Shown one piece after another: positions 3,251 to 18,293 of a stretch of DNA of 18,293 nt. Origin of the DNA: Desulfobulbus sp. (GTDB lineage Bacteria > Desulfobacterota > Desulfobulbia > Desulfobulbales > Desulfobulbaceae); NCBI GenBank assembly GCA_028684915.1, contig JAQUEZ010000114.1, forward strand, positions 1-18,293, in the 5' to 3' direction. The notes under the pieces are model-generated. The model saw only the letters and a program-made list of their open reading frames with translations, did no database searches and was not told where the DNA came from. Position numbers and translations under genes: made by a program. The stretch's first letter is position 1, and each line of letters starts with the position of its first letter.

Positions 3251-3267
3251 GGGAAGATTGTAGTTTA

Positions 3268-3300: not shown

Positions 3301-3305
3301 TTCTT

Positions 3306-3560: not shown

Positions 3561-3564
3561 ATTT

Positions 3565-3722: not shown

Positions 3723-3958
3723 TATATTTTCAGGGTTTTTCTTTAACTTTCGACTGGTTAGCTTGGTCCGACCCCAGACACACCATTAGTCTCTATTTTT
3801 AAAAGAACGTTCCATTAGCCTCTTTGCAAATCATTGGGGAAGGTATAAGATGAATTCGTTTTCTTTTTCTTGCAATTTTATTGTCGGCGTTGCTGCTTGT
3901 CGGAGCAACCGTTCAGGCCGGGAAAAACCCGCAGCCAAAAAAAATGGAGGGAAAGACT

Positions 3959-4291
3959 ATGAGCGCACTTGTGGTGAAGATTCAGATGAAAGCCGAGTTT
4001 CGTGATCAGTTCATCAAGGAGATGTTGGCCGACGCCATCGGTTCGGAGAAGAATGAACCGGGTTGCCTGATGTTCAACATTGTAAATGACGCCGCCGATC
4101 CCAACGTCCTCTATCTGTTCGAAGTATACAAGGACGCCGACGCCATTGAGACTCACAAGAAAATGCCGCATTTCGTGAAGTGGCTGGAAACGACGAAGGA
4201 CTGGCTTGCAGCGCCCCTCGAAATTATGCCGAGCAATGTGATATATCCCCCAATGAACGGCTTGGAGAAACGTCCCGCGCCCGCGATGTGA
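3959..4291 (+). CDS. ABM-domain monooxygenase (putative quinol monooxygenase, YgiN-like)
   Basis: The 110-residue product has the antibiotic-biosynthesis-monooxygenase fold signature: ALVVKIQMKAEFRDQF, then EPGCLMFNIV, then LYLFEVYKDADAIETHKK and FVKWLETT. Such cofactor-free small dimeric proteins oxidise quinols or related aromatics; the substrate here is unknown. I chose the ATG at 3959 because GGAGGG lies seven bases upstream. The same frame is open upstream to 3854 without ATG (TTG at 3881). It encodes a hydrophobic stretch RFLFLAILLSALLLVGATV ending in VQA, a convincing signal peptide. An ATG with an excellent ribosome site (GGGGAAGG, 3837-3843) lies at 3850 but in another frame. The gene may thus be an exported protein with a frameshift, or may use the internal start. 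Confidence 0.75.
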   Translation: MSALVVKIQMKAEFRDQFIKEMLADAIGSEKNEPGCLMFNIVNDAADPNVLYLFEVYKDADAIETHKKMPHFVKWLETTKDWLAAPLEIMPSNVIYPPMNGLEKRPAPAM

Positions 4292-4310
4292 GATGTGGCG
4301 TGAAAACTGA

Positions 4311-4347
4311 AAAGCCCCCTCCGGCGAGATATCCGGAGGGGGCTTTT
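4311..4347 (+). terminator. Rho-independent terminator of the ABM gene
   Basis: AAAGCCCCCTCCGG and CCGGAGGGGGCTTTT form a strong GC-rich stem, with T residues on the plus side and A residues on the other. It starts 20 bases after the stop codon of the monooxygenase gene. Confidence 0.9.
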
Positions 4348-4888
4348 GCACTTTGGGGGTCTTGAAAAGTCAGTTTCTTATAGTTCAAGACATAAATTGC
4401 CAATTTGTTTAACCCAAACAGACTAATGCACTAAAGCAACAACGGGCCCTTGGCCCTCGGGGAGTGCCCCGGTTTTTCCTAACGAGTAAGCTGTCCCCAG
4501 AATTCAATGGGTAACTGGTGCAGCTAAAGCTGACATCTAAAAGAAAAAGAAATAGCGGCAATGGTTACGATGTCGGTGGCTGAAAAGCAAGGCTGAGAAA
4601 ACTCATGTTCATGCATAGGGGAAGTCTTTGCCGTTGACAGCGGCCTTTTAATGGGTGACCCCATTGCCTTTGACCCCATTGCCTTCGAAGTGAAAAAGAA
4701 ATTGTTGAGGGAATTGCACTGTTAAAGAAAGCATGGTTCGGGCAGGAGTAAAACCGGAGAGGATGGGCAACGGCCGACAAAGGTCACGGGGTCACCCTTT
4801 GCCCGAAACGGATATCAAAAGGTAAACGCACTCCCCAAAAGCCCCATTCCGCTCGCAATCCCTCCAAACCCCTCCTCGCCTACCGACG
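4348..4888. other. Gene-free interval with repeat fragments
   Basis: I see no supportable gene here. It holds a 26-base repeat (4359-4384) shared with 18068-18092. A small CGGGG-agtg-CCCCG hairpin followed by GTTTTT lies near 4459-4477. A perfect tandem duplication of TGACCCCATTGCCTT lies at 4656-4685. The short open frames across it are broken by stops or made of repeat sequence. Confidence 0.6.
4656..4685. repeat. Tandem 15-bp duplication of the GACCCCATTGCC motif
   Basis: TGACCCCATTGCCTT occurs twice back to back (4656-4670, 4671-4685). Its core matches the end of the REP-like repeats at 3268-3300 and 6983-7015. Confidence 0.85.
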
Positions 4889-5224
4889 TCACCACCACCA
4901 TCTCCTCGAACGCCAGGCATTTATCATTTGCCACCACCAGATGTCTCCGAAAACTCCGGCCATCACTGCCGACAGGAGCGACGAAACGCCGATGACAAGC
5001 CAAGCCGACGGTCCCTGGTGCCAGAAACGCATCCAGATCAACGTGCCCATACCGGCCCCGGCCAGAGCCCCGCAGATAAAATGTATCCAGAATCTTTCCC
5101 AATCATAGGGCTCTTCGGCGGGTCTTCGAGGCCGTGGAGGACGGTATTTGCGAAATACCAATCCGCAGCTGCGGCAAATTTCTCCATCCGGCTGATTCTC
5201 GGAGCACTTCGGGCAGGTAATCAT
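4889..5224 (-). CDS. Zinc-ribbon inner-membrane protein of unknown function
   Basis: The 111-residue product begins MITCPKCSE and has a four-cysteine zinc ribbon (C4, C7, C17, C20). A basic proline-rich linker (RPPRPRRP) follows, then two hydrophobic segments (about 47-66 and 73-97) and a Trp-rich, basic end (RSRRWWW). This suggests a cytoplasmic zinc knuckle on a two-helix membrane anchor. An ATG five codons upstream is possible, but the ATG at 5224 has GGGGA at good spacing. It is the last gene of a minus-strand group, 79 bases after the glutaredoxin gene. I do not recognise a named family. Confidence 0.7.
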   Translation of the reverse strand: MITCPKCSENQPDGEICRSCGLVFRKYRPPRPRRPAEEPYDWERFWIHFICGALAGAGMGTLIWMRFWHQGPSAWLVIGVSSLLSAVMAGVFGDIWWWQMINAWRSRRWWW

Positions 5225-5303
5225 TGCTGAATCCCCCATACAGCCTGCAATTTCTCATCTGAAACCAGTGTTGCGGGGTCTGGCTTTGGCATCGTGATTC
5301 TCG

Positions 5304-5789
5304 CTATCTGCCCAGACACGACAGCACGGCATCGGGATTGTAGCCACGAATGACCGTGGAGCCAATCCGAACCACCGGGACCCCACCCCCGCCCAGCTCC
5401 TGGAAAGTTTTTGCGGCGGTACTGTCCTGTTCTATGTCGTAGGCAACATACGAAATGCCTTTTTCCTTCAGGAACCGCTCCATCTTTTTGCAGTAGCCGC
5501 ACCAGGAAGTTTGGTACAACTCGACGGTATTTCCGCCGTACGAAATGCTCTTGCGCGGCAAAGGCTCTTGAGATTTACGAGTCGAGGGGGCCGGGCCGGC
5601 ATCGACAATGGAAATGTCGCCTGAGGACCCGGTTTGCTGAAGCTGTTTGCGGTATTTAGCCGGCACCTTGGAGATGTCATCGACAAAATGCAATGACCCT
5701 TTACTGTCCGTGTAGCGGTAAATTTCACCTTGGGCCGTACCGGCGAAAAGAGGCAGGATAAAGGTTGCAAGTAGCAAGAAATATCTCAT
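5304..5789 (-). CDS. Exported DUF4124-glutaredoxin fusion protein
   Basis: The 161-residue protein starts with a signal peptide (MRYFLLLATFILPLFAGTAQ, cleavage probably near residue 21). A DUF4124-like module follows (EIYRYTDSKGSLHFVDD, about 22-55), then a flexible Ser/Pro-rich linker. The C-terminal glutaredoxin domain (about 87-161) has the dithiol site C97-G-Y-C100 and the cis-proline GVP (P138) that shapes the thiol site. This indicates a periplasmic thiol-disulfide oxidoreductase or disulfide-handling protein. AGGGAG lies six bases before the ATG. It sits between a small lipoprotein gene (upstream) and a zinc-ribbon membrane protein, all on the minus strand. The fusion is common in Geobacter-type bacteria; the physiological partner is unknown. 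Confidence 0.88.
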   Translation of the reverse strand: MRYFLLLATFILPLFAGTAQGEIYRYTDSKGSLHFVDDISKVPAKYRKQLQQTGSSGDISIVDAGPAPSTRKSQEPLPRKSISYGGNTVELYQTSWCGYCKKMERFLKEKGISYVAYDIEQDSTAAKTFQELGGGGVPVVRIGSTVIRGYNPDAVLSCLGR

Positions 5790-5832
5790 ACATGACTCCC
5801 TCTGACATGACTATCGTTCAAGGAAGCAGTCG

Positions 5833-6030
5833 CTAACGGCACGTTCCCACATAATCACCGTGGCCCAGATGGGCATCGACTGCCGCTTCATCCACATAGA
5901 TGGTTTTCTTCCCCTTGTGACAGACAGGCACCTTGCCGCCCGCCTGAGTCGGGGGTCCCACGGAAACCACTGCGCACCCCGCACAGCAAAACATCGCACC
6001 GGAAATGATTGTCGCTCTGATCAAATTCAT
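5833..6030 (-). CDS. Small putative lipoprotein with a CHKGK...HLGHGDYVGTC motif
   Basis: This 65-residue protein has a hydrophobic N-terminus with a near-consensus lipobox C-A-G-C (acylated Cys would be C19), although position -3 is Cys rather than Leu. The mature part is one short module, VCHKGKKTIYVDEAAVDAHL then GHGDYVGTC. Its Cys/His pattern (C37, H38, H54, H57, C64) is found as a small module in many secreted bacterial proteins, where it may bind metal or form a disulfide; that role is inference. GAGGAGG precedes the ATG. It is first of the three minus-strand envelope genes. Confidence 0.75.
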   Translation of the reverse strand: MNLIRATIISGAMFCCAGCAVVSVGPPTQAGGKVPVCHKGKKTIYVDEAAVDAHLGHGDYVGTCR

Positions 6031-6118
6031 GCCTGCCTCCTCGTGTGTAGATGCTCCGGCTACTCTACTTCGTCAAACAATTTTATGCAACATACGGTTC
6101 TCACTTCAGAGAGGCCTC

Positions 6119-6145
6119 GAAAGTCAAAAGGTCAAACCCGACCCT
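6119..6145. repeat. Half-copy of the TCAAAAAGTCAAACC repeat
   Basis: AAAGTCAAAAGGTCAAACCC followed by GACCCTA matches, in reverse complement, the left arm of the repeat at 13954-14023 (22 of 25 bases). It lies just upstream of the ferritin promoter. Confidence 0.55.
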
Positions 6146-6165
6146 ATCCCCCCCTATGCCCTGAT

Positions 6166-6194
6166 TTGCATTGTCCCTGAAGCAGCGCTAGAAT
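6166..6194 (+). promoter_or_regulatory. Sigma70-type promoter of the ferritin-like gene
   Basis: TTGCAT (6166-6171) and TAGAAT (6189-6194) are spaced by 17 bases and lie 28 bases before the ATG of the ferritin-like gene, leaving a short leader with AAGGAGG. Confidence 0.6.
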
Positions 6195-6221
6195 TTAAGA
6201 CTCAAGCAAAAGGAGGAATGT

Positions 6222-6722
6222 ATGAACCTTGAATCCATTACTGTCCAGGAGGCGGTTCGAAGCTCACTGCAAACCGAAAAGAATGCCATGGATTTTTATC
6301 GGCTGGGCGCCCTGAAAATGAAAGACCCCGAGTCCAGAAGGGTTTTTAAGATCCTTGAGAGGGAAGAGCGTGAGCATGCCGGCTTCTTCTATGCTATTTA
6401 CTCGGGCACCGATATACCGTCTCTGGATGCGTTTCTCGACCAGCCGCCACATCACGAATCCGATTGGCTCTCAGAACTGAATCGGATTATCGACACCGGT
6501 TTCAACGAGCAGAAAGCGCTTGAACTGGCCATGCACAAAGAAAAGCAGCTAGAGGAAGTTCTGTCCAGGATGGCCGAAAGGATACCCGATCCGGCAGTTA
6601 AGGCGGTGTTCGAGTTGAATATCAGGGGAACACATAACCACTATCTGATGATCGAGTCCGAATACTCCAGGTTGATGGGGATGGTTGACGAATCGGATAT
6701 GGATATCTATGTGCGTGAATAA
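6222..6722 (+). CDS. Rubrerythrin/ferritin-like diiron protein
   Basis: The 166-residue all-helical protein resembles rubrerythrin-type ferritin-like domains, without the rubredoxin tail. Likely iron ligands are E19 (QTEKNAMDFY) and E49-x-x-H52 (EREEREHAGFF) in the first helix pair, and E101/E107 in the third helix. In the fourth helix, where a second ExxH is expected, the sequence reads ELNIRGTHNHYLMIE: H138 and H140 are present but the glutamate is replaced (R135 or T137). The site may bind metal differently or be degenerate. The role would be peroxide detoxification or iron handling in the cytoplasm. It is monocistronic, with a strong AAGGAGG five bases before the ATG. Confidence 0.82.
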   Translation: MNLESITVQEAVRSSLQTEKNAMDFYRLGALKMKDPESRRVFKILEREEREHAGFFYAIYSGTDIPSLDAFLDQPPHHESDWLSELNRIIDTGFNEQKALELAMHKEKQLEEVLSRMAERIPDPAVKAVFELNIRGTHNHYLMIESEYSRLMGMVDESDMDIYVRE

Positions 6723-7094
6723 GGAGTGGCAGCAATCCACCAGAACTCACGTCAATTGGGGTACTTTCATAGCGGCATGAACTTCGACTTCTTCGACAAC
6801 CGTAAAACTGGGGCATCATGAAGTTGGGGCACGACCCTATTTCTTGAGTCGGAAAAGAGGAGTTCCCCTATTGTCTAGCTAAGTTTGCAAGATTGCAATC
6901 CTGACCCAAAACTCGCCCAACCATATTTCTCAGCTAGGCACTTCAAATATAAAAATCTAAAGGGCGTCCCCAAAACCCCCTGAATATCAAATAATGCAAG
7001 CCTGACCCCATTGCCTGAGGGCATTATTTGTAGTAAATTCGATAAGATTCATAGCTGTATTTCTCTATCTACCCATTTTAGTCGTTAATGTTTT
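6723..7094. other. Gene-free interval rich in GACCC-type repeat fragments
   Basis: No gene is seen. The interval has several related motifs: GCACGACCCTATTTC near 6827, GCAATCCTGACCC near 6895, and the full 33-bp RAYT-upstream repeat at 6983-7015. It separates the ferritin gene from the convergent mreB-like gene. Confidence 0.6.
6983..7015. repeat. Solitary copy of the 33-bp RAYT-upstream repeat
   Basis: It is identical to 3268-3300 except at one base (C7009 against T3294), but has no RAYT gene beside it. It is probably a solo end left by, or used as a substrate of, a RAYT-type element. Confidence 0.75.
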
Positions 7095-8027
7095 CTATGA
7101 GTTCTTGTTTAATAATGAAACAATCGGCAGCATTTCCCGTGCACCTGCCACGACAGCATCAAGAGGGTTGGATGCAACTTTTACGGAAATATGAGTCGTT
7201 TCTTCCAACCTTTTTCTCATGCCCTTAAGAAGCGCTCCTCCACCACTCAGGTAGATGCCATTTTCAATTATTTCACAACCAATATTAGGAGAAAGATCGT
7301 GTAGCATTTTCTGCGCGACATCGAGAATTTCAACTGTAATCGGCTCAAGACATTCATGAATTTCTTTTCGAGTGACATTCGAATCACTTGTCGACAAATT
7401 CTGTACATTGCGTACGTTAATATTCTTGCTGTTTGGCGTAATGTTTCGTTCTACTCCAATTTCGCGAATGATTCGTTCCGCCTCGATGTCGGAAATACGA
7501 ATTTTCATTTTTGTTTCCATAATGTTGACTACACGATGTCGGAAATTGAAGCACCCCACCCTCACAGCTCGCTTGCTTATGATCCTACCGGACCGAATGA
7601 CTGCACAGTCCGTAATTCCTTCGCCAATATCTAAGACCATTCCAGCATAAGGCGAAGCTACTTCCATCCCAGCACCAATTGCGGCGGCAAGAGGCTCCAA
7701 AACGATACAAACCGTTGAAGCCCCTGCTTTGGCAATACACGCTTTCAGCATATCAAGTTCTTCAAAGGTGATATCTGATGGGACGCAGGTCACAGCATTA
7801 GGACGAAAGATGCCGAATTTCCGTACGCGGAATAGCAGGGGCTCAAGTAGTTCCACTGCTGAACTAAAATCTTTGATGACTCCCGAATTAAGCACATATT
7901 GTCCTCTAACCATTGATGGAACCTTTAACAAATTTCTTGTGCCGGATGATATACGAGTCATTGCCGTTCCAAGATCTATTGCAATATCTGGTTTCCATAA
8001 CGAACTGCGGAGACGCATTCCCATCAT
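7095..8027 (-). CDS. Divergent MreB-family actin homologue
   Basis: MreB polymerises on the inner membrane and guides cell-wall synthesis. This 310-residue paralogue keeps the actin ATPase motifs. Phosphate-1 is DIAIDLGTAMTRI (14-26). The connector is EPLAAAIGAG (111-120). Phosphate-2 is DIGEGITDCAVI (133-144, where MreB has DIGGGTTE). The adenosine motif is GIYLSGGGALLKGMRKRL (257-274). It is about 35 residues shorter than typical MreB, and the subdomain around 195-220 is short and Asn/Ser-rich. It lies 18 bases downstream of an Rnk-type gene and not with mreCD, so it is an accessory copy. GTGAGG precedes the two ATGs at 8027/8024; either may be used. Confidence 0.88.
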   Translation of the reverse strand: MMGMRLRSSLWKPDIAIDLGTAMTRISSGTRNLLKVPSMVRGQYVLNSGVIKDFSSAVELLEPLLFRVRKFGIFRPNAVTCVPSDITFEELDMLKACIAKAGASTVCIVLEPLAAAIGAGMEVASPYAGMVLDIGEGITDCAVIRSGRIISKRAVRVGCFNFRHRVVNIMETKMKIRISDIEAERIIREIGVERNITPNSKNINVRNVQNLSTSDSNVTRKEIHECLEPITVEILDVAQKMLHDLSPNIGCEIIENGIYLSGGGALLKGMRKRLEETTHISVKVASNPLDAVVAGAREMLPIVSLLNKNS

Positions 8028-8045
8028 TGATACCTCACATTTGGG

Positions 8046-8474
8046 CTATAGATGAAAATCACCAGCCTTCTCAGGCTGATAGAGGATTTTTACTACCTTC
8101 ATGCGTCTTTCCCCGGTTGGGGTTCTGAATTCTAAAACATGGCCAACTCGGCATCCAATCATTGCAGTTCCTAGTGGAGAAAGAACCGACACCCTATTTT
8201 GCTCAATATTTGCTTCCCTTGGGAATACTATCGTATATGCCATATGCTCGCTTCTCTCGAGGTCGTTAAGGAGCACCATGGAATTCATGGTAATAACATT
8301 TGAAGGAATGTCGTCAGATTCCACAACTTCGGCTGACAATAATTCTTCAGATAATTCTTCGAGATGTTTTTGGTCTCTAGAGATGCTTTCTCCTGTTACT
8401 GAAAGCAATTCTTCCAATCGAGCCATGTCTTTTTCAGTTATATATATGGATTTTATTCCTTTATTTTTTTTCAT
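8046..8474 (-). CDS. rnk: Rnk-type nucleoside diphosphate kinase regulator (GreA/GreB family)
   Basis: The 142-residue protein matches Rnk along its length. It has an N-terminal coiled-coil-like helical part (12-50), NVITMNSMV (59-67, compare VVTMNS in Rnk), and the GreA-type C-terminal domain with SPLGTAMIGCRVGH (99-112) and the ending YQPEKAGDFHL (132-142). Rnk binds RNA polymerase near the secondary channel like GreA but has no acidic cleavage-stimulating tip. In E. coli it affects nucleoside diphosphate kinase and polysaccharide production. GGAG precedes the ATG at proper spacing. It is first of a two-gene unit with the mreB paralogue, 18 bases apart. It could be a dedicated paralogue rather than the only Rnk of the genome. 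Confidence 0.88.
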   Translation of the reverse strand: MKKNKGIKSIYITEKDMARLEELLSVTGESISRDQKHLEELSEELLSAEVVESDDIPSNVITMNSMVLLNDLERSEHMAYTIVFPREANIEQNRVSVLSPLGTAMIGCRVGHVLEFRTPTGERRMKVVKILYQPEKAGDFHL

Positions 8475-8701
8475 CCTATTATCTCCAAGTAAATAGCTGA
8501 TTTTATATAAAAAGCCAGCTGGTCATCTTGACTCCTTGGAATTCGGACGCAGGAATACCTTTAGTCCTGTGTTCAAACTCGTTTTGTGCAGGATGTAAAG
8601 ATGCACCAGTAGCGCTAAAAGGTCGAAGAGCAGTCTAGAAGACGCAAAAGACCACGACCATTACCGCTTATGGTTGGCAAGAAAGAGTGTTATTCAGGAT
8701 A
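8475..8701. other. Interval with no supportable gene
   Basis: No coding region, RNA gene or clear promoter was recognised. On the minus strand, TATATAAAAT (8500-8509) is a possible -10 element for rnk, without a convincing -35. Confidence 0.5.
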
Positions 8702-9034
8702 TCAGGAAAGATACAAGGGGGGTGCCCTGGCAGGGGCTGCCGAATGACATAAAGCGAAGATAAATCGACACGCAAGTCGATCAATTGAAGTTAACTTGGA
8801 AGAGGGTTCTACGAAAGGAGTCCCTCTCAATAGCGCAACGACTTTGAAGGATTTCTTTACCTGTGGATTGGATTTATTCCCTTTTTCCTTAAAGATGTTT
8901 GTTTGTGACTTGGTTTCAGGAAGAATTGAAGAAAAGGATACAAGTATCCCTTGAGCGATGAAAAACGCAAAAACAGTAAGGATCGCAAGTTTAAGAAATA
9001 ACTTGTTCTTGATAAACTTTCCGACGGGGTTCAT
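8702..9034 (-). CDS. Small single-pass membrane ORF, possibly a truncated gene
   Basis: The 110-residue ORF begins MNPVGKFIKNKLFLKLAILT and has one strong membrane segment (about 13-36). A Lys/Asn/Ser-rich stretch follows, then FKVVALLRGTPFVE. The last 40 residues (Cys, Ala, Pro and Arg-rich) look non-coding. The layout, N-terminal anchor plus the start of a soluble domain, suggests the 5' part of a longer membrane-anchored protein, interrupted. The ribosome site is weak. I do not recognise a family. Confidence 0.35.
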   Translation of the reverse strand: MNPVGKFIKNKLFLKLAILTVFAFFIAQGILVSFSSILPETKSQTNIFKEKGNKSNPQVKKSFKVVALLRGTPFVEPSSKLTSIDRLACRFIFALCHSAAPARAPPLYLS

Positions 9035-9222
9035 GGCTCAACCATATCCCAAATCCCCGGAAGTATCAAGCCATGTTCTTGTTAATGATATCTTCACCAA
9101 TATCATTGGTAGGCAAAAAGGAATACGCATCCTAAATATACTGAAAAACAGGTCGTTATACTTATTATTGCGTCTCAACATTCTGGATATTGATTCTTTC
9201 TCGCTAACAGAATCATGGGGTC

Positions 9223-9297
9223 AGAATCGTGAGAATCGTGGGGTCAGGATTAAAGGTTATGGTGTCAGGTCTCCACCTGTGACAATGTCATGAGTGG
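9223..9297. repeat. Cluster of GGGTCAG-type motifs and a REP-like hairpin left of IS copy 2
   Basis: GGGGTCAGAATCGTGAGAAT is followed by GGGGTCAGGATTAAAGG and by ATGGTGTCAGGTCTCCAC (9259-9276). The last forms a hairpin, GTCAGGT-ctcc-ACCTGTGAC. The 18-mer is repeated in inverted orientation on the other side of the IS (10932-10949, and 3071-3088 in copy 1). Confidence 0.7.
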
Positions 9298-9299
9298 AC

Positions 9300-10931
9300 G
9301 GGCTGTTGCTCAAACGACAACATTCTGGCCCTAACTAGCTGATTATGCTATAATCCTGCCATCATTAGCTATTTGGAGAGTCGCCATGATGGGAGTCCAA
9401 GAACAACCTCAGAGCAGTCTGTTTCACTTTGGTGTGAACCTCGACAAGAGAATCAGAAGCAACCATCCTCTTCGGAAGGTAAACGAACTTGTCGATTTTT
9501 ACTTTGTCTATGATGAAGTAAAAAGCTTCTACGGCCACAATGGCAATGAATCTGTTCCACCACCAGTTATCCTGAAGCTGATGCTCCTGCTGGTTTTCTA
9601 CAATGTCCGCTCAGAACGGGAGCTGATGGAAACTCTCCCGGAACGCATGGACTGGTTGTGGTTCCTGGGTTATGACCTTGATTCGACGATTCCAAACCAT
9701 AGCGTATTATCCAAAGCCAGAAAGAAATGGGGAGTTAGTGTATTTCAAAGCTTTTTCGAACGGATAGTCCTGCAGTGCGTCCAGGCCGGATTGGTTAACG
9801 GCAGCAAGATTTTTGTCGATTCAAGCCTGATCGATGCTAATGCATCAAACAATTCCGTCCTCGACACGAAAAACCTGAAACACCAGCTTCACAGGAACTA
9901 CCAGAAACTTGAAGCCCGTCTGACAGAGGGCAACGAAAGCACAGATTCTTCACGGTACTACGAAAAGAAGAACAGTCGCTACATTTCCAGTACCGACCCG
10001 GATGCATCTATCGTAAACCGTGGCAAGCCGAAACTTTCTTACCAGGTGCACCGTGCAGTTGACGGAAAGAATGAAATCATCACGGCAACCGATGCAGCTT
10101 CTGGCGATGTCAACGAGGCTCACCTGATGCTGCCGCTTTTAGAGCAACATGAGACGACAACAGGAATTACGGCTGACACCATAGTGGCAGACAGCAAGTA
10201 TGGCACCATCGACAACTTTCTAGCTTGCCACGACAGAGGGGTCAAGGCCCATATCCCTGACTTGCGGCAAGCAGCACTTAAACGGACGAAGAAACGTTCC
10301 ATCTTTACCGATGATCAGTTTCTTTATGATCCGCAAATCGATATGTACCGCTGCCCAGCCGGGAAGCTGCTCAAGCGCAAGTCTCTACATAAGCACCGCG
10401 AAAGCAGTGATTATGGGGCTCCCAAGAAAGTCTGCGCGGCTTGCGAGCTGCGTGAGCAATGCACCAAGAACAAAACCGGGCGAACGGTCAAGCGTCACCT
10501 GCGCCAGGACGAACTGAATATCATGCGTGAACAAAGCCAATCTAACGAGGCCAAACGGGATATAAAAACAAGGCAACACCTCATGGAGCGCTCATTTGCC
10601 CGATCAACACGCTACGACTTCGACCAGGCCCGGTGGCGCGGACTTTGGAAGATGAAGATTCAGGAGTACCTCACCTGTGCGATCCAGAATATCCAGACGT
10701 TAATCAAGTATGGATCAAAACCTCAAAAGGCAGTGGCGGCAAGGGCAAAAGCAGAGCAAATGGCAATAAAACCAGCTAAAACGGCGATTATGTCGCCAAT
10801 AAAAGCTGCCTTATGGCCTTTCAATATGAACGAAGGAATATTTTTTCAAAGAACATGAATCTATGAAAATACGGTTTCATTCTACAGCTGACGTCTGATC
10901 TGAGCTAAAAAAGTTGTTTCGGCAACAGGTC
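9300..10931 (+). mobile_element. IS1182-family insertion sequence, copy 2
   Basis: Identical to the copy at 1439-3070. It is the better candidate for the original insertion. The 18-mer ATGGTGTCAGGTCTCCAC lies to its left (9259-9276) and its exact inverse to its right (10932-10949), so it sits between two arms of a REP-like repeat. Copy 1 has only the right arm. Confidence 0.8.
9386..10858 (+). CDS. IS1182-family DDE transposase, copy 2
   Basis: The 490-residue product is identical to the transposase at 1525-2997, with the same proposed catalytic residues (D145, D269, E401), extended -10 promoter (9346-9354) and ribosome site. Both copies are intact, so either can supply transposase to both elements. 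Confidence 0.93.
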   Translation: MMGVQEQPQSSLFHFGVNLDKRIRSNHPLRKVNELVDFYFVYDEVKSFYGHNGNESVPPPVILKLMLLLVFYNVRSERELMETLPERMDWLWFLGYDLDSTIPNHSVLSKARKKWGVSVFQSFFERIVLQCVQAGLVNGSKIFVDSSLIDANASNNSVLDTKNLKHQLHRNYQKLEARLTEGNESTDSSRYYEKKNSRYISSTDPDASIVNRGKPKLSYQVHRAVDGKNEIITATDAASGDVNEAHLMLPLLEQHETTTGITADTIVADSKYGTIDNFLACHDRGVKAHIPDLRQAALKRTKKRSIFTDDQFLYDPQIDMYRCPAGKLLKRKSLHKHRESSDYGAPKKVCAACELREQCTKNKTGRTVKRHLRQDELNIMREQSQSNEAKRDIKTRQHLMERSFARSTRYDFDQARWRGLWKMKIQEYLTCAIQNIQTLIKYGSKPQKAVAARAKAEQMAIKPAKTAIMSPIKAALWPFNMNEGIFFQRT

Positions 10932-10955
10932 GTGGAGACCTGACACCATTGTCAT

Positions 10956-11111
10956 TTGGATTCGATGACCGAAGCGCTCGGTTCCTTCCTGAAGCAACAG
11001 ATAAAACCGGTACCGGTCGGTATCGTCGAAAAAAATGTCCTGGCGGGCATTCCCGCGCAAGATCACATGATAGTATGCGCCTGGATAATGGATACGGGGT
11101 TTTCTTGCCAT
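10956..11111 (-). pseudogene. RAYT 5' fragment, copy 2
   Basis: Identical to the fragment at 3095-3250: the first 52 residues of a REP-associated tyrosine transposase without the HUH motif or catalytic tyrosine. The 33-bp repeat upstream of its start is at 11129-11161. Confidence 0.85.
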
Positions 11112-11128
11112 GGGAAGATTGTAGTTTA

Positions 11129-11161
11129 AATATCAAATAATGCAAGCCTGACCCTATTGCC
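11129..11161. repeat. 33-bp RAYT-upstream repeat, copy within direct repeat 2
   Basis: Identical to 3268-3300, and one base different from the solitary copy at 6983-7015. Confidence 0.75.
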
Positions 11162-11166
11162 TTCTT

Positions 11167-11421
11167 GACGTTCGGAGCGGTTTTGAATTCAAAGCCGGAC
11201 ACATCCCCGGAGCGATCCATGCCCCAACATGGAAAATACTCCTGCTATTAGCACGCCTCCCTTCCGACAAAAATGCCGAACTGGTCGTAACATGCGAACA
11301 TGGACCGCGTGCCCAAGTAGCCAAAGGACTATTGGAAGTCCGTGGCTATCGGAATGTTAAACTTTTATCTGGACACATGTTCGCTTGGCGAAATGCTGGC
11401 CATGCTGTGAATCGGATTTGA
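11167..11421 (+). pseudogene. Rhodanese-like domain, 5'-truncated, copy 2
   Basis: Identical to 3306-3560. It keeps the active-site loop CEHGPRA but lacks the N-terminal part of the domain and a start codon. Confidence 0.75.
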
Positions 11422-11425
11422 ATTT

Positions 11426-11449
11426 CCTGGAATTCCGAGGAATTCCAGG
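11426..11449. repeat. Perfect 11-bp hairpin, copy 2
   Basis: CCTGGAATTCC-ga-GGAATTCCAGG, as at 3565-3588. Confidence 0.8.
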
Positions 11450-11662
11450 GACAGTATATTTAACTTCGAAAAATTGCGTGTAGTATCCCCCGAAAGAGTG
11501 TTTGTACTCCCCCCCTTTTCGAACAGAAACCTTAAAAGGCCGATTTTGCCCCCGAAAATGGACGTTTAAGCCGTTTTTGGGGGTATATTTTCAGGGTTTT
11601 TCTTTAACTTTCGACTGGTTAGATTGGTCCGACCCCAGACACAGCCTGGGTACCAATACCAA

Positions 11663-11690
11663 TTGACATCCTGCAAACACCATACATAAT
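11663..11690 (+). promoter_or_regulatory. Sigma70-type promoter upstream of the 147-residue membrane protein
   Basis: A consensus TTGACA (11663-11668) is followed after 16 bases by CATAAT (11685-11690). The leader to the ATG at 11824 would be about 125 bases, which is long. It starts just past the right end of direct repeat 2. Confidence 0.5.
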
Positions 11691-11823
11691 TTAAGGGCTG
11701 AAATAAATAATATCCCCCGAACTATGCCAACTAGGGCTGATAATAACCGGCAGAAAGTGTCCGCGACAAGGCCACGTTTCCGTGACCCTTTACTCGATGG
11801 AAGAATGAACTTAGGAGAACAAT

Positions 11824-12267
11824 ATGGAAGATGGAAAAGATATTTCTCATCCTACCGATAATGAATTGCTAGTTGAGTACCAAGCTGCCCAAGATTCTGC
11901 TCAGCATCATGATACCCTTATATGGTTAATAAACAGTGTTATATGGAGTGCTTCACTGATACTGTTGGGCTTACTATTAAAATCTTCTCCGGATAGAAGT
12001 ATGATTCTGATTGTATCTATAGTTAGTCTATTGGGCATTTTTCTTGTTATTAAAGTCTGGATTTATACGTTTCAGTTGGCTGAACTAAAGCGAAAGAAGT
12101 ATGAAAGATGTAAGGAAATTGAGAAAAGGCTTGGTTTTACACAGCATACATCGGTAGTTTGGAAAAGCGGAATGCAAAGGGTTTTATATTCTATAGTGAT
12201 GATACTTTTTATTGTAATATGGTTAATTGTTGCATGGACGTATTTAAAGCCTTGTATTTGCCAATGA
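11824..12267 (+). CDS. Three-helix membrane protein of unknown function
   Basis: The 147-residue protein has a short acidic cytoplasmic-looking N-terminus, two close membrane segments (about 31-52 and 60-83), and a basic helical stretch ELKRKKYERCKEIEKRLGF (87-105). A third membrane segment lies at about 120-141. The helical stretch after a 2TM unit is reminiscent of small 2TM proteins found beside defence genes (SLATT/RipA-like), but I cannot assign it to them. AGGAG lies six bases before the ATG. It is AT-rich, unlike the genes left of the repeat, and it converges on the minus-strand island, so it is probably part of the accessory region. Confidence 0.65.
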   Translation: MEDGKDISHPTDNELLVEYQAAQDSAQHHDTLIWLINSVIWSASLILLGLLLKSSPDRSMILIVSIVSLLGIFLVIKVWIYTFQLAELKRKKYERCKEIEKRLGFTQHTSVVWKSGMQRVLYSIVMILFIVIWLIVAWTYLKPCICQ

Positions 12268-12342
12268 TGGGGGAATCTCTGGGATCATGCAGTGGCCGGG
12301 GTCAGATACTTTCTTGATTACTACTTGTCAAGATGAATCTTT

Positions 12343-12413
12343 GGGGTCAGTTTAGATTTTTGACTTTTGTGTGACAAATATCAAAAAATCAAACCCTACC
12401 CCATAAGGCTCCT
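12343..12413. repeat. Imperfect ~70-bp palindromic repeat, copy A
   Basis: GGGGTCAGTTTAGATTTTTG through CAAACCCTACCCCATAAGG. It aligns without gaps over 46 core bases to 13954-14023 (34 of 46 identical). The ends are inverted copies of each other, so it can fold into an AT-rich hairpin. It lies at the 3' end of the DUF4747-membrane cassette. Confidence 0.65.
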
Positions 12414-12940
12414 CAATCTGCATTGTCATCTTCGTTAAATTTATTGAACCAGTCTGAAAGCTGGAAAACTGCCATAACAGCAGCTAATGCAGATGATACT
12501 GAGTAGAGGAAAACCAAAAAACCTAGCCAAGCAAGCGGACCAAAAATAACACCCCATGCCTTGAATACTATTGCCAATAGCAATGCTATAATTTGTAAGA
12601 TCAAAAAATTTGTAAAAGCAGCAATTATTGTTATAAATGGAGATGATCCATCATGATCATCCCCTGAAATAGCTTTTTGAAACGCCTCGTTTCCAAAAGC
12701 CAGAAGGATCGCATACCCTCCAAGAGTAAAACCAAGCATACTCGGGGTGATAGCAAGAACAAAATCGAACCAAGCTCCATCTTTTTCAAAGTCCCAGAAT
12801 GGCCACGTGAGAAGGAACAGCAAGATAGATAAGTGAAGATATGGTGAATAAACAAGTGATTTAAAGCCACCATACACTCGCCAATAGCGTCTAAAGATTT
12901 TATAAATTGCCTTGTACGGTTTCTGCCATTCTTGGTGCAT
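12413..12940 (-). CDS. Four-helix membrane protein paired with the DUF4747-like gene
   Basis: The 175-residue protein starts MHQEWQKPYKAIYKIFRRYW, a basic aromatic N-terminus. Four hydrophobic segments follow (about 33-49, 57-82, 102-126, 130-158), then an acidic tail (NKFNEDDNAD). A polar loop, GDDHDGSS, lies between segments two and three. It starts four bases after the stop of the DUF4747-like gene, with AAGGA inside that gene's end, so the two are co-transcribed and probably act together. I recognise no enzymatic motif. An inner-membrane effector or anchor for the upstream protein is an inference from the operon, not from the sequence itself. Confidence 0.75.
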   Translation of the reverse strand: MHQEWQKPYKAIYKIFRRYWRVYGGFKSLVYSPYLHLSILLFLLTWPFWDFEKDGAWFDFVLAITPSMLGFTLGGYAILLAFGNEAFQKAISGDDHDGSSPFITIIAAFTNFLILQIIALLLAIVFKAWGVIFGPLAWLGFLVFLYSVSSALAAVMAVFQLSDWFNKFNEDDNAD

Positions 12941-12944
12941 GCCT

Positions 12945-13820
12945 TCAATTCCTTGTCAGACTAGCATACATACGTGAAGCCATATTTTTAAAAAACGAAA
13001 GTTCTGTCTGGGTATCTGGATTGAATCGGTCTTTCATGATTCTAGGGTGACTCTGCGTAGACTCAGTAATTTTTTGTTCATTTGCACCTAAACCTTCAGC
13101 AGTTATCAACCCATTTGAGCTAGCAACGCGCATAAGCATTTTTATATCTTCATCTGGCTCCAGCCCTTGTCCTTTATGACTATCCCATTTTTCGGACAAC
13201 TTCCTAGCCTTTACCCTGTCAAATCTTTTAAAAACTTTTGCCTCATCATCTTCGTCCAAAACATCTCCGGGATTAGGCTTGGAAATTTTAATTTCAAGCT
13301 TGTTTAATATCGGGATGGCTAGAATTTTTTCAACAGCTTCTATTGACGTCTCAATTTCTACATCAACGTTACCATATTTGTTCACTATGCTTTTCTGCCG
13401 AAAAAGTGATTCCATAAGATGCATCGCCATTTTAGGAGGTAACAAGTCAGACTCAAAAAACATTCGATGATGTTTTGGGTAGAATATATAAAAAATCTCC
13501 TTCAAATTCGGCTTCAAATTTTCAGCAATAGGCTGTACTATTCGTCCTTCTTTATCCTTTACGGGCATTTTTGTTAAAGTGTTTAGCCAAGGATCTTTTG
13601 GATCAATATTCAAAAATTTATAAATAGTTCCGAAATGAACTATCTTGTCATTATCTTTATCACTCTGGAAGGTACCCAGCATTCCCCAACTTGACCCTCT
13701 GATTTTTACACTTTTTCCTATGGTAAATACATCAGTTAAGAGACTTGAATAACCGGATTCAGAGTGTGGGTGTGTTTTTATGTTTAGTGCCCCAACCCGA
13801 AGTACACGAGATCTAGCCAT
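12945..13820 (-). CDS. DUF4747-like protein
   Basis: The 291-residue soluble protein starts MARSRVLRVGALNIKTHPHS. It contains KIRGSSWGMLGTF (39-51), then YKFLNIDPKDPWLN (67-80) and NLKPNLKEIFYIFYPKHHRM (100-119). Further on are FGxV-like YGNVDVEIETS and a C-terminal VASSNGLITAEGLGANEQK with a STQSHPR motif. I associate this pattern from memory with the DUF4747 family, which is found in scattered, horizontally moving loci; that assignment is not confirmed. No nuclease, ATPase or DNA-binding motif is evident. AAGGAG lies nine bases before the ATG, and a perfect palindrome (13853-13865) lies in the leader. It is AT-rich and first gene of the two-gene cassette. Confidence 0.7.
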   Translation of the reverse strand: MARSRVLRVGALNIKTHPHSESGYSSLLTDVFTIGKSVKIRGSSWGMLGTFQSDKDNDKIVHFGTIYKFLNIDPKDPWLNTLTKMPVKDKEGRIVQPIAENLKPNLKEIFYIFYPKHHRMFFESDLLPPKMAMHLMESLFRQKSIVNKYGNVDVEIETSIEAVEKILAIPILNKLEIKISKPNPGDVLDEDDEAKVFKRFDRVKARKLSEKWDSHKGQGLEPDEDIKMLMRVASSNGLITAEGLGANEQKITESTQSHPRIMKDRFNPDTQTELSFFKNMASRMYASLTRN

Positions 13821-13852
13821 ACTTTGCGCTCCTTACAAGTGGAAGAATTTCA

Positions 13853-13865
13853 GTCACCCGGTGAC
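13853..13865. promoter_or_regulatory. Perfect 6-1-6 palindrome, candidate operator of the DUF4747 cassette
   Basis: GTCACC-C-GGTGAC lies 33 bases upstream of the ATG at 13820. Its position in the leader or promoter region and its symmetry suit a dimeric regulator, possibly autoregulation. Confidence 0.4.
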
Positions 13866-13953
13866 CAGAATGGGTTTATTAGCAATTAAATGGAAATGTT
13901 GCCTTAAAAACAAACAATTGCCAACTTATTGTGTATGAGTTTGCGGAACTTTT

Positions 13954-14023
13954 AGGGTCTGGTTTGACTTTTTGACTTTTATGTGAAGAATGCCAGAAAG
14001 CTAAACCCACCGCATAAGTCCCT
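13954..14023. repeat. Imperfect ~70-bp palindromic repeat, copy B
   Basis: AGGGTCTGGTTTGACTTTTT through CTAAACCCACCGCATAAG, in the same orientation as copy A (12343-12413). With A it brackets the two-gene cassette. The left arm is also found inverted at 6119-6145. Confidence 0.65.
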
Positions 14024-14047
14024 ATGCCCCATGCGGATATATGTATG

Positions 14048-16024
14048 TCAAATCACATGTAATCCAATTTCTTTCAAATACTCGAAAGTCACATCATAAA
14101 ACACTGGGTTTCGCGTATGGTCCCCCTCATCACCTTGAGGAATAACAATCACCATACCCTGACGTGCACGGGTCAAAAGAACACGATAAGCGTTTTTGAG
14201 ATACTGCTTACGCTGCTCTTTCTTGATATTGTTCCACCGATCTCCACAAAATGAATAATGCCCCCATCCATTTTTTGAATATCTGAAATCGGCGTCCCAT
14301 GTAACACACGCCCAGTCGAGTTCCAAACCTTGGACATGGAACTCAGTCGCCACTTCCTCAAGATAATACGACGACCGCACATCATACTTCCCGTCCAAAA
14401 ACCAATGAATAGGATCCATAGGCGACTTCACATCAATGGCGTGTGGCTTCAAACGTTCCGCCTGTGATGAAACAACAATGCCATATCGTTCAGATCCCCG
14501 AGCTTGATTTTTCAACCATTGCTTGGCCTTGCCTAAATCACGAGTGAGAACAATCGGATATTTATCTTTCACGTTTTCGAACGTCTGACGTGCGGCATCA
14601 ACTTCAAGGTCAAGGATCTGTTTTACGAGCAGGGAAACATTCTCCGCTCTGAAGGAACGCATCGATACTGCAAGATGAAGTTCATCTCTTTTCACAACGT
14701 GTTGACGCGATTTCAGCTCATTGAGCAACTTCTCAACGTTGTATTCACTGTCGGCAAGACGTGATGAGATGTAAATACGCCAATCTGGGAAAGATCGATT
14801 TAACGACTCAATCCACTCTCCTATCCCGGCCTCACCAGTATTGATTTCTTGGCCACCCCCAACAAGACAGACAATGACAGCCCAATCTGTATGGCGATTG
14901 AGGCAGGAGATGAGAAATTCGGGTTCGGAGTGATTGAAGTCAGGCGTATTTTTCGTTCGCCGCATAAACGCAGAAGTTTGCTCCAAGTTCCAAGCACGCT
15001 GTGCCTCATCAAATATGGCTACGTGCTCAATAGGCGGGCGATCATGATGAATAAGGCATTCATCTCTGAAATGGTGGACATTCTGGATGAAAGGCTTTAC
15101 ATCGCTTCTCGCTTTGCCGATCCTCAATTTTTCCCCATCATCCTCACTACGCCGAACCCTGTCACGTGCAAGCGCCTCACAAAGAATTTTTACAAGTGGA
15201 CCATTACCAGACAGATACACACTATAAAGATCATCAGTTTTGTCGATGTGTTTTGTAGCAACATTGAGGCCGACAAGCGTTTTCCCAGCGCCAGGGACAC
15301 CAGTTACAAAACAGATGGATTTTTGCGAGCGATCTCTCGACGAACGGATAATGTCGCTAATCACCTCGGATGTCTGACTAAGGTTAATTGCGCTTGCATC
15401 ACTTCTGGATATCTCAGCAACTGAATGATTATTGTAGAGTGCCATAGCTGCTTCGATGATGGTTGGCGTCGGGCAATAGCGGCCACGTTCCCATTGGGTA
15501 CGTTCTATGTCCTTCCCGTCAGAAAAGTTAAGCACATTTGCAATTACGCTACTAAGCAGTTTTGAGTCAGTCTTAATTGGCAATAGCAATTTGTCATTTT
15601 GAGGCGTTATAGCGATAACAGGATCGGCACCTTTAGCATTGGTGGCGATTAGGATTGGAGCTATATATTGTTCATGACTAGATTCGTGGAAGTTTTTCAA
15701 GTCCAAAGCGTAATCCCAGACTTGATCTATGGCGTAAGTAGTGAATTCTTGCTCGCCAACCTTAAACTCAAGAACAAAGATGACAGGCCCAATCAGCAGC
15801 ACAACATCAATGCGCCGTCCCATGCGAGGTATGGAGTACTCAAAGTAGATTGAACCACGATACGGCTCAAGGACTTTCCGGAGGATGTGAATTTGTGCTA
15901 CCCAAGCATCACTTTGCGTTTGGATTAACGCAAAATCATTGTTGAGCGAAAGTTTGCCCAGAATTTCCTCAGTTGAAGAGTGTAGGAAACTGGCGATGGA
16001 ATCAGAATAATACTCTCGCTGCAT
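14048..16024 (-). CDS. PD-(D/E)XK nuclease-DUF2075 helicase fusion (defence-type)
   Basis: The 658-residue protein has an N-terminal nuclease-like domain with [10 protein letters not shown] (71-80) and VLEFKVG (84-90). D73 and E86-F87-K88 fit a PD-(D/E)XK active site. The second half is a DUF2075-type superfamily 1 ATPase. Walker A is TGVPGAGKT (241-249) and Walker B is [10 protein letters not shown] (336-345). A motif-III-like [12 protein letters not shown] (387-398) follows. Late motifs are [14 protein letters not shown] (558-571) and [17 protein letters not shown] (613-629). It probably tracks on and cuts nucleic acid. The layout recalls the single-gene nuclease-helicase immunity protein Nhi, a comparison by architecture only. 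AAGGA precedes the ATG. It is downstream of the Mrr gene, 134 bases away. Confidence 0.88.
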
Positions 16025-16158
16025 GCGATGTCCTTATTAAGATCTCTGTCCTGACACTTTGCGGGACATATGGAATCTTCCCCCAGTCATTAAACTTCCA
16101 TGACTGAACGTGGAATCGTCCATCGAAGGGAAAATCTATTAGAAAACAGTTTCTATTC

Positions 16159-17004
16159 TCAATTCTCCAAGGCTCGCGTGCCGTGACATTTTGGGTAATT
16201 TGACCATCCCCAAAACTCCTTACCTGCATTTGCCCCTTTTCGCGCAATCCGCTTTATCATACTGGCTCCGCAATCAGGACATTCTCGTTCTCTTTCAAGG
16301 CCAGCCTGAGCAATTGGATGATTAAAAGTACTCAGATTTGATTGTCGAACTTCCTTAATCATGTTTGTCAGCTTCTGCCCATCAATTAGTTGGATGTTTT
16401 TCCCTTCAGCAAATTTGCGAGCTTCACTGGTATATTCTCCAGACGTTACGAAATATCCACCGGTTGCACCTTCAGCTGCAATAACACCATATAACTCTCG
16501 GACCTGAGGCACTCCGACTTTGTAAGCTTTCCACTGTTTACATTGGACGAGATACTTTTCACTTCCCTTTTTCAAAACAATGTCAACACCCCCGTCAGCA
16601 CCATCCCCAGTTAGTGATGCATTAAACCCGCGACGGCGGAAAAACTCGCTGATAATCATCTCAAACTCTTTCCAATCCATGTCACCCAAAGCATTTATTT
16701 TTTGAGATGTTGCAACATTCTCGTATAGATTTTTCCGTTTACGAGTATTGAGAAAAGAAATTATCGCACCTAAGAGAAAAACAAACGGAAGAATGAATTG
16801 GCCGAACGTCGCTAATGTTCTAGTGACACTCTTGACAACTATAGTTCCCATTTGGCCTGGACCAGTAAGAGTACCAACAGGGCTTGCAGAATATATGTGT
16901 AAAGCTACATATGATACGAGCGCCAAGAGGACATCCGCCCACCAAGGCAACTTACTCGCGATTTCAAAAAGGTCTTCAATTAAACTGTTCTTGTTCCTTG
17001 CCAT
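16159..17004 (-). CDS. Membrane-anchored Mrr-type restriction endonuclease with topoisomerase-like zinc finger
   Basis: The 281-residue protein has two membrane segments (about 22-40 and 65-84). An Mrr catalytic domain follows (about 105-215), with FEMIISEFFRRRGF, then DGADGGVDIVL (D141) and LVQCKQW (Q154-C155-K156), a PD-(D/E)XK variant. A topoisomerase-type zinc finger closes the protein (C242, C245, C273). Its third cysteine is replaced by W267 (FWGWSNYPKC, normally FWGCSNYPKC), so zinc binding may be lost. Mrr enzymes cut modified foreign DNA; membrane anchoring may place this one near the site of phage DNA entry. The frame is open to an ATG at 17067, but the ATG at 17004 has GAGG at good spacing, starts like relatives (MARNK...LPWW), and avoids overlap with the HNH gene. 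Confidence 0.88.
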   Translation of the reverse strand: MARNKNSLIEDLFEIASKLPWWADVLLALVSYVALHIYSASPVGTLTGPGQMGTIVVKSVTRTLATFGQFILPFVFLLGAIISFLNTRKRKNLYENVATSQKINALGDMDWKEFEMIISEFFRRRGFNASLTGDGADGGVDIVLKKGSEKYLVQCKQWKAYKVGVPQVRELYGVIAAEGATGGYFVTSGEYTSEARKFAEGKNIQLIDGQKLTNMIKEVRQSNLSTFNHPIAQAGLERERECPDCGASMIKRIARKGANAGKEFWGWSNYPKCHGTRALEN

Positions 17005-17054
17005 GCAAACCTCATTATCATTTTTTGTCTTCAGAAATGCCAAATTGTTATGGG

Positions 17055-18035
17055 CTACAACCGCCACTTACTCCTATGCCACTTCAAATGCTTTTGCTCC
17101 GGCCACAATTTCCTGTCAGTTGGAGGGATAATCCCTCTCCCGGCAAGCATCAGCAAAAATCCCGGCACATTCGGATCAGCCGCAATCTGCCGAGAGGTAA
17201 TGACGTTGTATTCCTCAGACACCCCCATCATCCCCTCGTCAAACGCCCAGTGACAAAGCTTACACAGAGCCATGCCATTACGGATGTCGTCGTTTTTGCT
17301 GACGCTCCAAGGCACGATGTGAGCGGCATCGACCACGGTATGACATTCCGACGTAACGATCCGAACTCCACACATGGCACACCGATGATCATAGGTGGTA
17401 ACCACCGCCCGTCGAAATCCCTGGTTCCGCACGGCAGGCTTGTACTTCTCCGAATCGAGAATCTCCTTCACTCGTGGCTGGTGGGCAACCTTCAACAGTT
17501 CCAGGTTGTAGGTGAACGCCTCGGAATTCACCTGTGCCTGTTCCAGAAGTGCCTTTTGCGCCTCTTCGGAGAAACTTGACTGTAAAAGGACCAATCGCAG
17601 AGAGTTACGGTTATCCCGCTGCTGGAGGAGCAGGAACAGATCTTCATCCATCCGTGCACCAAGTGCAACTGTCCGGAGCTGATTCAGCGACGTGATATTG
17701 TTGATTGCCTCGCGAGTTATCTCTCGACCGGATACCGGAACTAGCTCCCAGAATGGTTCGTTATGAAGTCGGGAAAAAGGAAAAGCAATGCTGCTTTTTT
17801 GAGAGATCGGGACAACTTTGCGCCAATAGCCGGCAAAGAGATCGTTCAGTTCAACCAGGTCATCATCCAGGGAAATGAAGCTCGAGCTGATTACTCTCCG
17901 CTCGATCAGATCCATCAACGCCAGAAGAAGCAGCGGCTTGTGCGGAGCACGGTTTCGCGTTGCCTCGCTCCAAGATTGACCCGGTGCACGACGTAGCTTG
18001 GCGAACTGCTGTATATATTTCTCAATTTCGCTCAT
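17055..18035 (-). CDS. HNH restriction endonuclease with ScoMcrA-SBD-like N-terminal domain
   Basis: The 326-residue protein ends in an HNH nuclease. The zinc cysteines are C219 and C222 (HRCAMCG) and C258 and C261 (LCKLCH); the catalytic core is H239 (VDAAHIVPW), N253 (RNGMALC) and H262. The N-terminal part (about 28-100: RAPHKPLLLLALMDLIE, then FAGYWRKV, then IAFPFSRLHNEPFWELVP) resembles the head and sulfur-binding module of ScoMcrA/SprMcrA-type enzymes that recognise phosphorothioate DNA. That match is from memory. A type IV enzyme against modified DNA is likely. The frame is open to 18131, but those 32 codons lie over a repeat. The ATG at 18035 gives the expected N-terminus and leaves room for the upstream gene, which ends at 18131. 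Confidence 0.85.
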   Translation of the reverse strand: MSEIEKYIQQFAKLRRAPGQSWSEATRNRAPHKPLLLLALMDLIERRVISSSFISLDDDLVELNDLFAGYWRKVVPISQKSSIAFPFSRLHNEPFWELVPVSGREITREAINNITSLNQLRTVALGARMDEDLFLLLQQRDNRNSLRLVLLQSSFSEEAQKALLEQAQVNSEAFTYNLELLKVAHQPRVKEILDSEKYKPAVRNQGFRRAVVTTYDHRCAMCGVRIVTSECHTVVDAAHIVPWSVSKNDDIRNGMALCKLCHWAFDEGMMGVSEEYNVITSRQIAADPNVPGFLLMLAGRGIIPPTDRKLWPEQKHLKWHRSKWRL

Positions 18036-18067
18036 GCCTTTTTCCAGTGCGACTCGCTGGGGGTCAA

Positions 18068-18092
18068 GTCTTGAAAAATCAGTTTCTATAGT
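18068..18092. repeat. 25-base repeat shared with 4359-4384
   Basis: GTCTTGAAAAATCAGTTTC then TATAGT. At 4359 the sequence is the same with one substitution and one extra T. It is preceded by GGGGGTCAA, like other repeats here, and lies in the leader of the HNH gene. Confidence 0.6.
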
Positions 18093-18130
18093 ATTAGTAA
18101 ACCTTCTACAGACTAAACTCCTACACCCCA

Positions 18131-18293
18131 CTACATTATTGTAAATTCTCCCTCTTTCGACTTATCGGGATATAAACGGGTCAAAGATTCCCTTTGTGAT
18201 TTTTCCTGCGGATTTACCCATGACTTTTTCTGACCAGTGCCGATTAATCGATATAGTATCATTCCTAAAAGCGGCAGAAAAAGTACCAAGAAA
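18131..18293 (-). CDS. C-terminal end of a membrane protein (cut by window edge)
   Basis: One minus-strand frame is open from the window edge for 53 codons to the TAG at 18131-18133. It begins with a hydrophobic stretch (FLVLFLPLLGMILYRLIG) and continues with a charged tail (KKSWVNPQEKSQRES, then LYPDKSKEGEF). This looks like the last membrane helix and cytoplasmic tail of a protein encoded beyond the window, upstream of the HNH gene on the same strand, 95 bases before its ATG. Function cannot be told. Confidence 0.55.
   Translation of the reverse strand, partial: FLVLFLPLLGMILYRLIGTGQKKSWVNPQEKSQRESLTRLYPDKSKEGEFTIM

Follow-up and report, generated by a model that had tools for sequence, protein, structure and literature searches.

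RexAB-type systems are the closest described counterparts of the locus reported here. For phage lambda and for the actinophages Sbash and CarolAnn, published work proposes a split between a soluble DNA-binding protein that acts as sensor and a membrane protein that acts as effector. Defence is reported to need both genes in Sbash and CarolAnn, and in Pseudomonas putida overexpression of the RexA-type protein is described as inhibiting growth only when the membrane partner is present. How RexA senses an infection is still treated in the literature as an open question. Here, we analyse an 18,293-nucleotide stretch from Desulfobulbus sp. (assembly GCA_028684915.1, contig JAQUEZ010000114.1, positions 1 to 18,293; hereafter the window), in which a gene for a DUF4747 protein is followed at once by a gene for a small membrane protein (Table 1). 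We propose, with a probability of roughly 0.7, that the two form a RexAB-like abortive-infection unit, a distant variant combining a DNA-binding sensor with a membrane effector. An earlier note on this DNA, made from the sequence alone, had recognized the sensor/effector layout of abortive infection in these genes, a view that is supported by their conservation, their contexts and a RexA-like predicted fold. Its further remark that it knew of no described system with such a pair is not supported, as RexAB-type and DUF4747 pairs are already in the literature.

Fold and sequence relations of the soluble protein

The 291-aa protein is a full-length member of DUF4747 (Pfam PF15931, E value 1.1e-63; 215.5 bits, where the cut-off is 27), with residues 13-262 matching positions 1-253 of the 257 in the profile, and it matches phrog_10040 in PHROGs at 3e-61. 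At E values up to 1, Pfam returned only DUF4747 and DUF5749. The description of the locus in the earlier note, a gene for a DUF4747-like protein four bases from one for a four-helix membrane protein, is accurate. When the model of the soluble protein was compared with the PDB, lambda RexA was the first match and RdgC the second, and a RexA/RdgC fold is predicted for the protein. On this model the locus has the soluble RexA-fold component of a RexAB-type system in the wide sense.

No corresponding relation was found between sequence profiles. The DUF4747 protein did not match the RexA profile PF15969 at E values up to 1, and lambda RexA, which finds PF15969 at 1e-97, did not match DUF4747 at E values up to 10. 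Profile comparisons with RexA and RexB by hmmsearch and hhalign, in which the RexA query was built from lambda alone, then from 4 and then from 46 of 52 sequences (6 short or partial ones being dropped), gave nothing above reversed and column-shuffled controls for either the DUF4747 or the membrane protein; RexA scored 30.2 against the actinophage proteins, compared with a shuffle maximum of 18.6. Sequence homology of the pair to RexA/RexB was rejected because these comparisons did not rise above their controls. Published descriptions give CarolAnn gp44 and Butters gp30 a DUF4747 motif, a link that consists there of weak matches in HHpred (probability 69.48 and E value 140 for Butters; PMC7542560); in Pfam, neither these two proteins nor Toast gp42 matched DUF4747 at E values up to 10. 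Given the absence of a profile-level relation to RexA/RexB and of a Pfam DUF4747 match in the actinophage proteins, the window pair is, as judged by sequence profiles, a lineage separate from both. What links it to RexAB-type systems is fold, layout and topology.

The membrane partner

The 175-aa partner has no Pfam family above cut-off and did not match the RexB profile PF15968 at E values up to 1 (lambda RexB finds it at 8.5e-92); in PHROGs it matches phrog_20580 at 1.3e-29. Its AlphaFold2 model is all-helical, with a mean predicted local distance difference test (pLDDT) score of 90.7, and hydropathy indicates 4 membrane spans. Across the family, exactly 4 spans were counted by hydropathy in 39 of 47 proteins, and charge places the ends inside in 38 of these 39. 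The partner is predicted to span the membrane four times and to have both ends in the cytoplasm, the topology published for RexB-type proteins, so that in prediction the adjoining membrane component of a RexAB-type system is also present. No RexB chain was among the PDB matches listed for the model, and among viral models a 165-aa Sbash protein appeared weakly, at rank 13 (E value 1.2).

In an alignment of the 29 proteins of the family search, window protein included, the columns W57, P66, G70-G75, A77, G83 and F112 are invariant and L69, F87, Y23-G24, F109 and others nearly so. Conservation is concentrated where the second span starts and in the stretch that follows, residues 66-77 being the most conserved. 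Replacing residues of Sbash gp31 between its spans 2 and 3 (R70A, D73A) is reported to abolish defence; that region is comparable to the conserved one here, though the two proteins cannot be aligned. A likeness between 'LGATLSSYA' of lambda RexB and 'LGFTLGGYA' of this family (probability 0.3%) was not upheld on retest and is not used.

Pairing and co-divergence of the two genes

The two genes are a near-obligate, co-diverging pair. With profiles rebuilt from hits and the window excluded, the membrane proteins form 47 clusters at 90% identity, 46 of which include a member with a same-strand DUF4747 gene directly upstream, at the gaps given in Table 1; in the 47th the contig start cuts off the upstream region. 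This bears out the conservation of the pair across unrelated genomes on which the earlier note had made its reading depend. Searches led by DUF4747 found an adjoining membrane gene at 21 of 23 loci, some of them near-duplicates: 6/6 in species genomes, 5/6 in viral sequences (the sixth, L013, is cut by a contig end), 2/2 on plasmids and 8/9 in further genomes over the Pfam cut-off, where the ninth, G967, is a fragment. One further genome hit (G408), below the cut-off and with three stops, was left out. A search led by the membrane gene without recourse to DUF4747 gave 43 viral loci, all IMG/VR contigs, and DUF4747 lies upstream in 40; the other three are L077, at a contig start, L042 and L044, the last two falling in a cluster with paired members. 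Two DUF4747 copies are not whole, one having a stop in the match (L006, around 10001-10150) and one lying in two pieces (L053, 5011-5988), with the membrane gene open beside each. A DUF4747 fragment without a membrane partner (L089:9785-10159) adjoins a formamidopyrimidine-DNA glycosylase gene. Trees of the two proteins, built from 46 relatives and the window, correlate with r 0.797, as against 0.404 for the best of 2000 permutations, which ignore the carriers' shared ancestry.

The family is also rare: of 1732 genome searches, 9 gave a hit above the cut-off, a count that excludes 5 centre genomes chosen for having the family and is drawn from groups that overlap slightly (G329, for example, is in two). 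A housekeeping factor joining DNA and membrane, unrelated to phages, might have been suspected from the second fold match, RdgC being a chromosomal recombination factor. Such a patchy distribution, with occurrences on plasmids and in viral contigs, argues against that explanation, which we hold to be highly improbable.

A natural deletion provides a view of the membrane gene on its own. In L042 and L044 (around 5950) the DUF4747 gene has been deleted but for approximately its last 12 codons and the membrane gene is intact, with 8 synonymous and 2 non-synonymous changes in 192 codons compared with the gene in L046, a relative that has kept the whole pair; because both contigs are nearly identical there, we count the deletion as one event. 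An intact orphan gene is consistent with a membrane protein that does no harm before it is activated, and counts against an antitoxin role for the DUF4747 protein. A toxin–antitoxin or addiction module, in which the membrane protein would be a constitutive toxin, would suit the tight two-gene operon, its combination of a soluble and a small membrane protein, and its presence on plasmids and in viral contigs. With this single deletion event, which is evidence at the gene level, counting against it, and as we know of no antitoxin type that is a RexA-fold DNA-binding protein, we regard such a module as very unlikely.

The same deletion touches on a wiring of the kind described for Butters, where the DUF4747 protein would itself be the antiviral effector and the membrane protein would hold or temper it. 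Butters gp30 alone is reported to block phage PurpleHaze, a block that is weakened by co-expression of gp31 (PMC7542560), and direct action on phage DNA is conceivable for a protein of this fold. Nevertheless, Butters gp30 is not a DUF4747 protein by Pfam, no complete DUF4747 gene without a membrane gene is found at the 23 DUF4747-led loci, and in L042 and L044 it is the membrane gene that survives alone, the opposite of what an autonomous soluble effector predicts. We consider this arrangement unlikely for the window pair.

Genomic context

Carriers of the pair include viral contigs and plasmids, and in one case it directly follows restriction genes. Phage or prophage carriage, a further mark of RexAB-type systems in the wide sense, is therefore seen for the family, in the 43 IMG/VR contigs, and not for the window itself. 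Around 32 viral clusters (102 of 111 called genes scanned; best 25 of 129 families), the neighbours include integrases, CI- and CII-like regulators, Rz spanins, head proteases and a late activator, with 2-3 proteins each. Neither of the two window proteins nor a Bordetella DUF4747 relative had a match in 50,697 phage records.

Published work on lambda RexA reports that the protein also biases the CI-Cro switch; whether exclusion is its true role is left open by the authors (PMC11077077). A pair that acts on phage entry, as in superinfection exclusion, or that tunes a prophage switch, with defence as a side effect, would agree with the many pairs found in viral contigs. Set against this, no phage structural or integration gene was recognized in the window (9 proteins scanned with Pfam, 6 with PHROGs) and genes of restriction type adjoin the pair, so that there is no visible switch to tune at this locus; this explanation appears to us distinctly unlikely.

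The earlier note placed the pair in a row of nucleases, which is a fair description, because the pair is preceded on its own strand by genes for a Schlafen-group-3 helicase, an Mrr-type nuclease and an HNH protein. It had also called the pair AT-rich, correctly (GC content of 0.35-0.40 across the pair versus 0.42-0.53 across the upstream genes). In another carrier, a cellular pair stands behind type I restriction-modification genes, all on one strand, and starts 47 bp after the specificity gene (L082:4360-10983). Neighbours were compared with PADLOC at 1e-8 within 7 genes of the pair at 17 loci, which include the fragment locus L089 and L087, whose contig is also catalogued as viral; 176 of 203 called genes were scanned, the 27 dropped comprising 26 under 100 aa and one of 144 aa. 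Among the best 25 of 27 and 25 of 151 families, QatB, QatC, QatD, type I restriction-modification genes, RmrA and PDC-M11A matched strongly and PDC-S31, capP and pVip more weakly. Control genes from 7 of these genomes, drawn from 8 places elsewhere (96 of 116 genes; best 25 of 30 families), matched too: 2 proteins gave RtcR-type matches as strong as 1e-107, mad3 and mad8 were each matched by 3 proteins, and there were matches to E1-E2 and, at 2e-23, to QatD. We read these as housekeeping look-alikes. Of the supposed enrichment near defence genes, the strong matches beside the pair stand and the enrichment itself is not demonstrated, in a comparison with crude gene calling and no P value, in which the matching member was not identified and 20 control genes (up to 258 aa) were dropped by eye as likely spurious with no like pruning of the neighbours.

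Other features of the window

Table 1. Features of the pair and its surroundings, in window coordinates.
Feature	Position	Strand	Remarks
DUF4747 gene, 291 aa	12945..13820	minus	Proposed RexA-like DNA-binding infection sensor
Membrane-protein gene, 175 aa	12413..12940	minus	Predicted four-span; proposed RexB-like effector
Spacer between both genes, 4 bp	12941..12944	minus	Gaps of -52 to +24 nt in relatives (46 clusters)
Schlafen-group-3 helicase gene, adjoins pair	14048-16024	as pair	PF09848 at 9.1e-84; PADLOC candidate PDC-S41 at 4e-288
Mrr-type nuclease gene	16159-17067	as pair	C-terminal zinc ribbon; hydrophobic N-terminal part by eye; phrog_33422 at 1.8e-61
HNH protein gene	17055-18131	as pair	Resembles phosphorothioate-DNA restriction enzymes (141.6 bits, below the cut-off of 180)
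Small membrane protein gene, 147 aa, behind pair	11824-12267	opposite	Weak 8xMP likeness (23.4 bits, cut-off 30)
Imperfect palindromic element (hairpin) behind membrane-protein gene	12343..12412		Minus-strand RNA -26.4 kcal/mol, z -3.6
Second element copy, between helicase gene and pair	13954..14023		Hairpin z -2.3
Leader palindrome, 13 nt	13853..13865		6-bp arms, 1-nt loop; chance level

The repeats that the earlier note saw as bracketing the pair are real, with 77% identity over 65 bp (E value 1.4e-7; the matching part of the second copy is 13955-14018), or 74% over 47 nt without gaps. They do not delimit a cassette. The first is 73% identical to its own reverse complement and each is 70-71% identical to the reverse complement of the other; one lies just after the stop codon of the membrane gene and the other just after the helicase stop codon. 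Further, partial copies are present at 3267-3296, 6120-6147, 6983-7011 and 11128-11157. Being self-complementary, hairpin-folding, placed after two different stop codons and partly copied elsewhere, the repeats are not special to the pair and were rejected as cassette ends. We read them as dispersed hairpin elements, perhaps like repetitive extragenic palindromic (REP) elements. The leader palindrome is likewise present, at chance level: when the 140-nt leader was shuffled 2000 times, 167 of the shuffles had one as good, and its paired half-sites occur in 0/46 of the relatives' leaders (4/46 carry other palindromes), for which reasons we rejected it as an operator.

Promoter-like sites were about as frequent as expected (7 found, 5.9 expected). 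Four terminator-like sites compare with 1.4 expected; all lie within genes, and the scan found none at either hairpin repeat. Rfam at gathering cut-offs found nothing in the window. The 147-aa membrane protein encoded behind the pair could be another effector. Elsewhere in the window, two 99.96% identical copies of a 2346-bp element (1437-3782 and 9298-11643) carry a DDE transposase gene, and each holds a short, truncated transposase-like fragment (3044-3250; 10905-11111) whose N-terminus presumably resembles those of REP-associated transposases. Outside the defence stretch, Pfam identifies an MreB-like gene beside a GreA/Rnk-like gene (7095-8474).

Discussion

In the RexAB-like abortive-infection unit that we favour, the DUF4747 protein would, like its tested relatives, bind DNA as a dimer and without sequence specificity. 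Phage infection would trigger it, either through replication or recombination intermediates or through a phage protein, and the triggered protein would then activate a membrane protein that is inert until that point. The activated partner may open or form a lesion in the inner membrane, and the cell would stop or die before phage is made.

More broadly, DUF4747 and its LGFTLGGYA partner may constitute a further RexAB-like lineage that RexA/RexB profiles cannot detect, occurring in viral contigs and plasmids and next to restriction genes, and spread across Pseudomonadota, Desulfobacterota/Desulfuromonadia and Acidobacteriota, a phylum placement that we in part presume; we rate this as somewhat short of an even chance. 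If it is true, DNA clamps of the RdgC/RexA fold would be a general class of phage-DNA sensor, wired to unrelated four-span membrane killers and largely missed by current defence annotation. PADLOC-DB 2.0.0 profiles matched neither pair protein at E values up to 1 (0 families), so that this branch would go unannotated with that library; the RexAB models of DefenseFinder are said to derive from Pfam or COG (PMC9090908). Alignments of so diverse a family, which is predicted to share the RexA fold and has a conserved membrane partner of its own, would help to locate the shared contact surface, and the many carriers without a visible lambda-type switch would allow defence to be tested apart from lysogeny control.

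Lambda RexA/RexB (PF15969/PF15968) has the layout of the window pair, a gene for a soluble DNA-binding protein with one for a small four-span membrane protein directly behind it. It differs in belonging to separate Pfam families with no detectable sequence relation for either protein; the window pair is not beside a recognized cI repressor, and its membrane family has a conserved LGFTLGGYA stretch that sets it apart from RexB. RdgC resembles the DUF4747 protein as the second fold match of its model, whereas it is a chromosomal recombination protein for which we know of no membrane partner. The actinophage RexAB-type pairs Sbash gp30/gp31, CarolAnn gp44/gp43 and Toast gp42/gp41 are described with the same two-gene layout and four spans, and their soluble proteins are tied to DUF4747 in the papers by weak HHpred hits; profile comparisons of CarolAnn and Toast with the window families did not exceed shuffled controls, and Sbash is likened by description only. 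Butters gp30/gp31 likewise combines a soluble with a four-span membrane protein and is reported to be syntenic in actinobacteria, but its gp30 lacks a Pfam DUF4747 match and is described as antiviral alone. Behind CapK/CapS, a 'DUF4747/CarolAnn prophage system' has been named, in passing, as an immune operon at 17 of 443 capK loci (PMC13373217); our searches of the open-licence PubMed Central literature found no experimental phage test of a Pfam-level DUF4747 pair. RexABpp of the P. putida prophage P1 (PP_5643/PP_5644) resembles the window pair, by its published description, in a RexA-type fold with comparable Z scores and in a toxic four-span effector activated by the soluble protein, and is distinguished by the membrane damage without depolarization that is reported for it.
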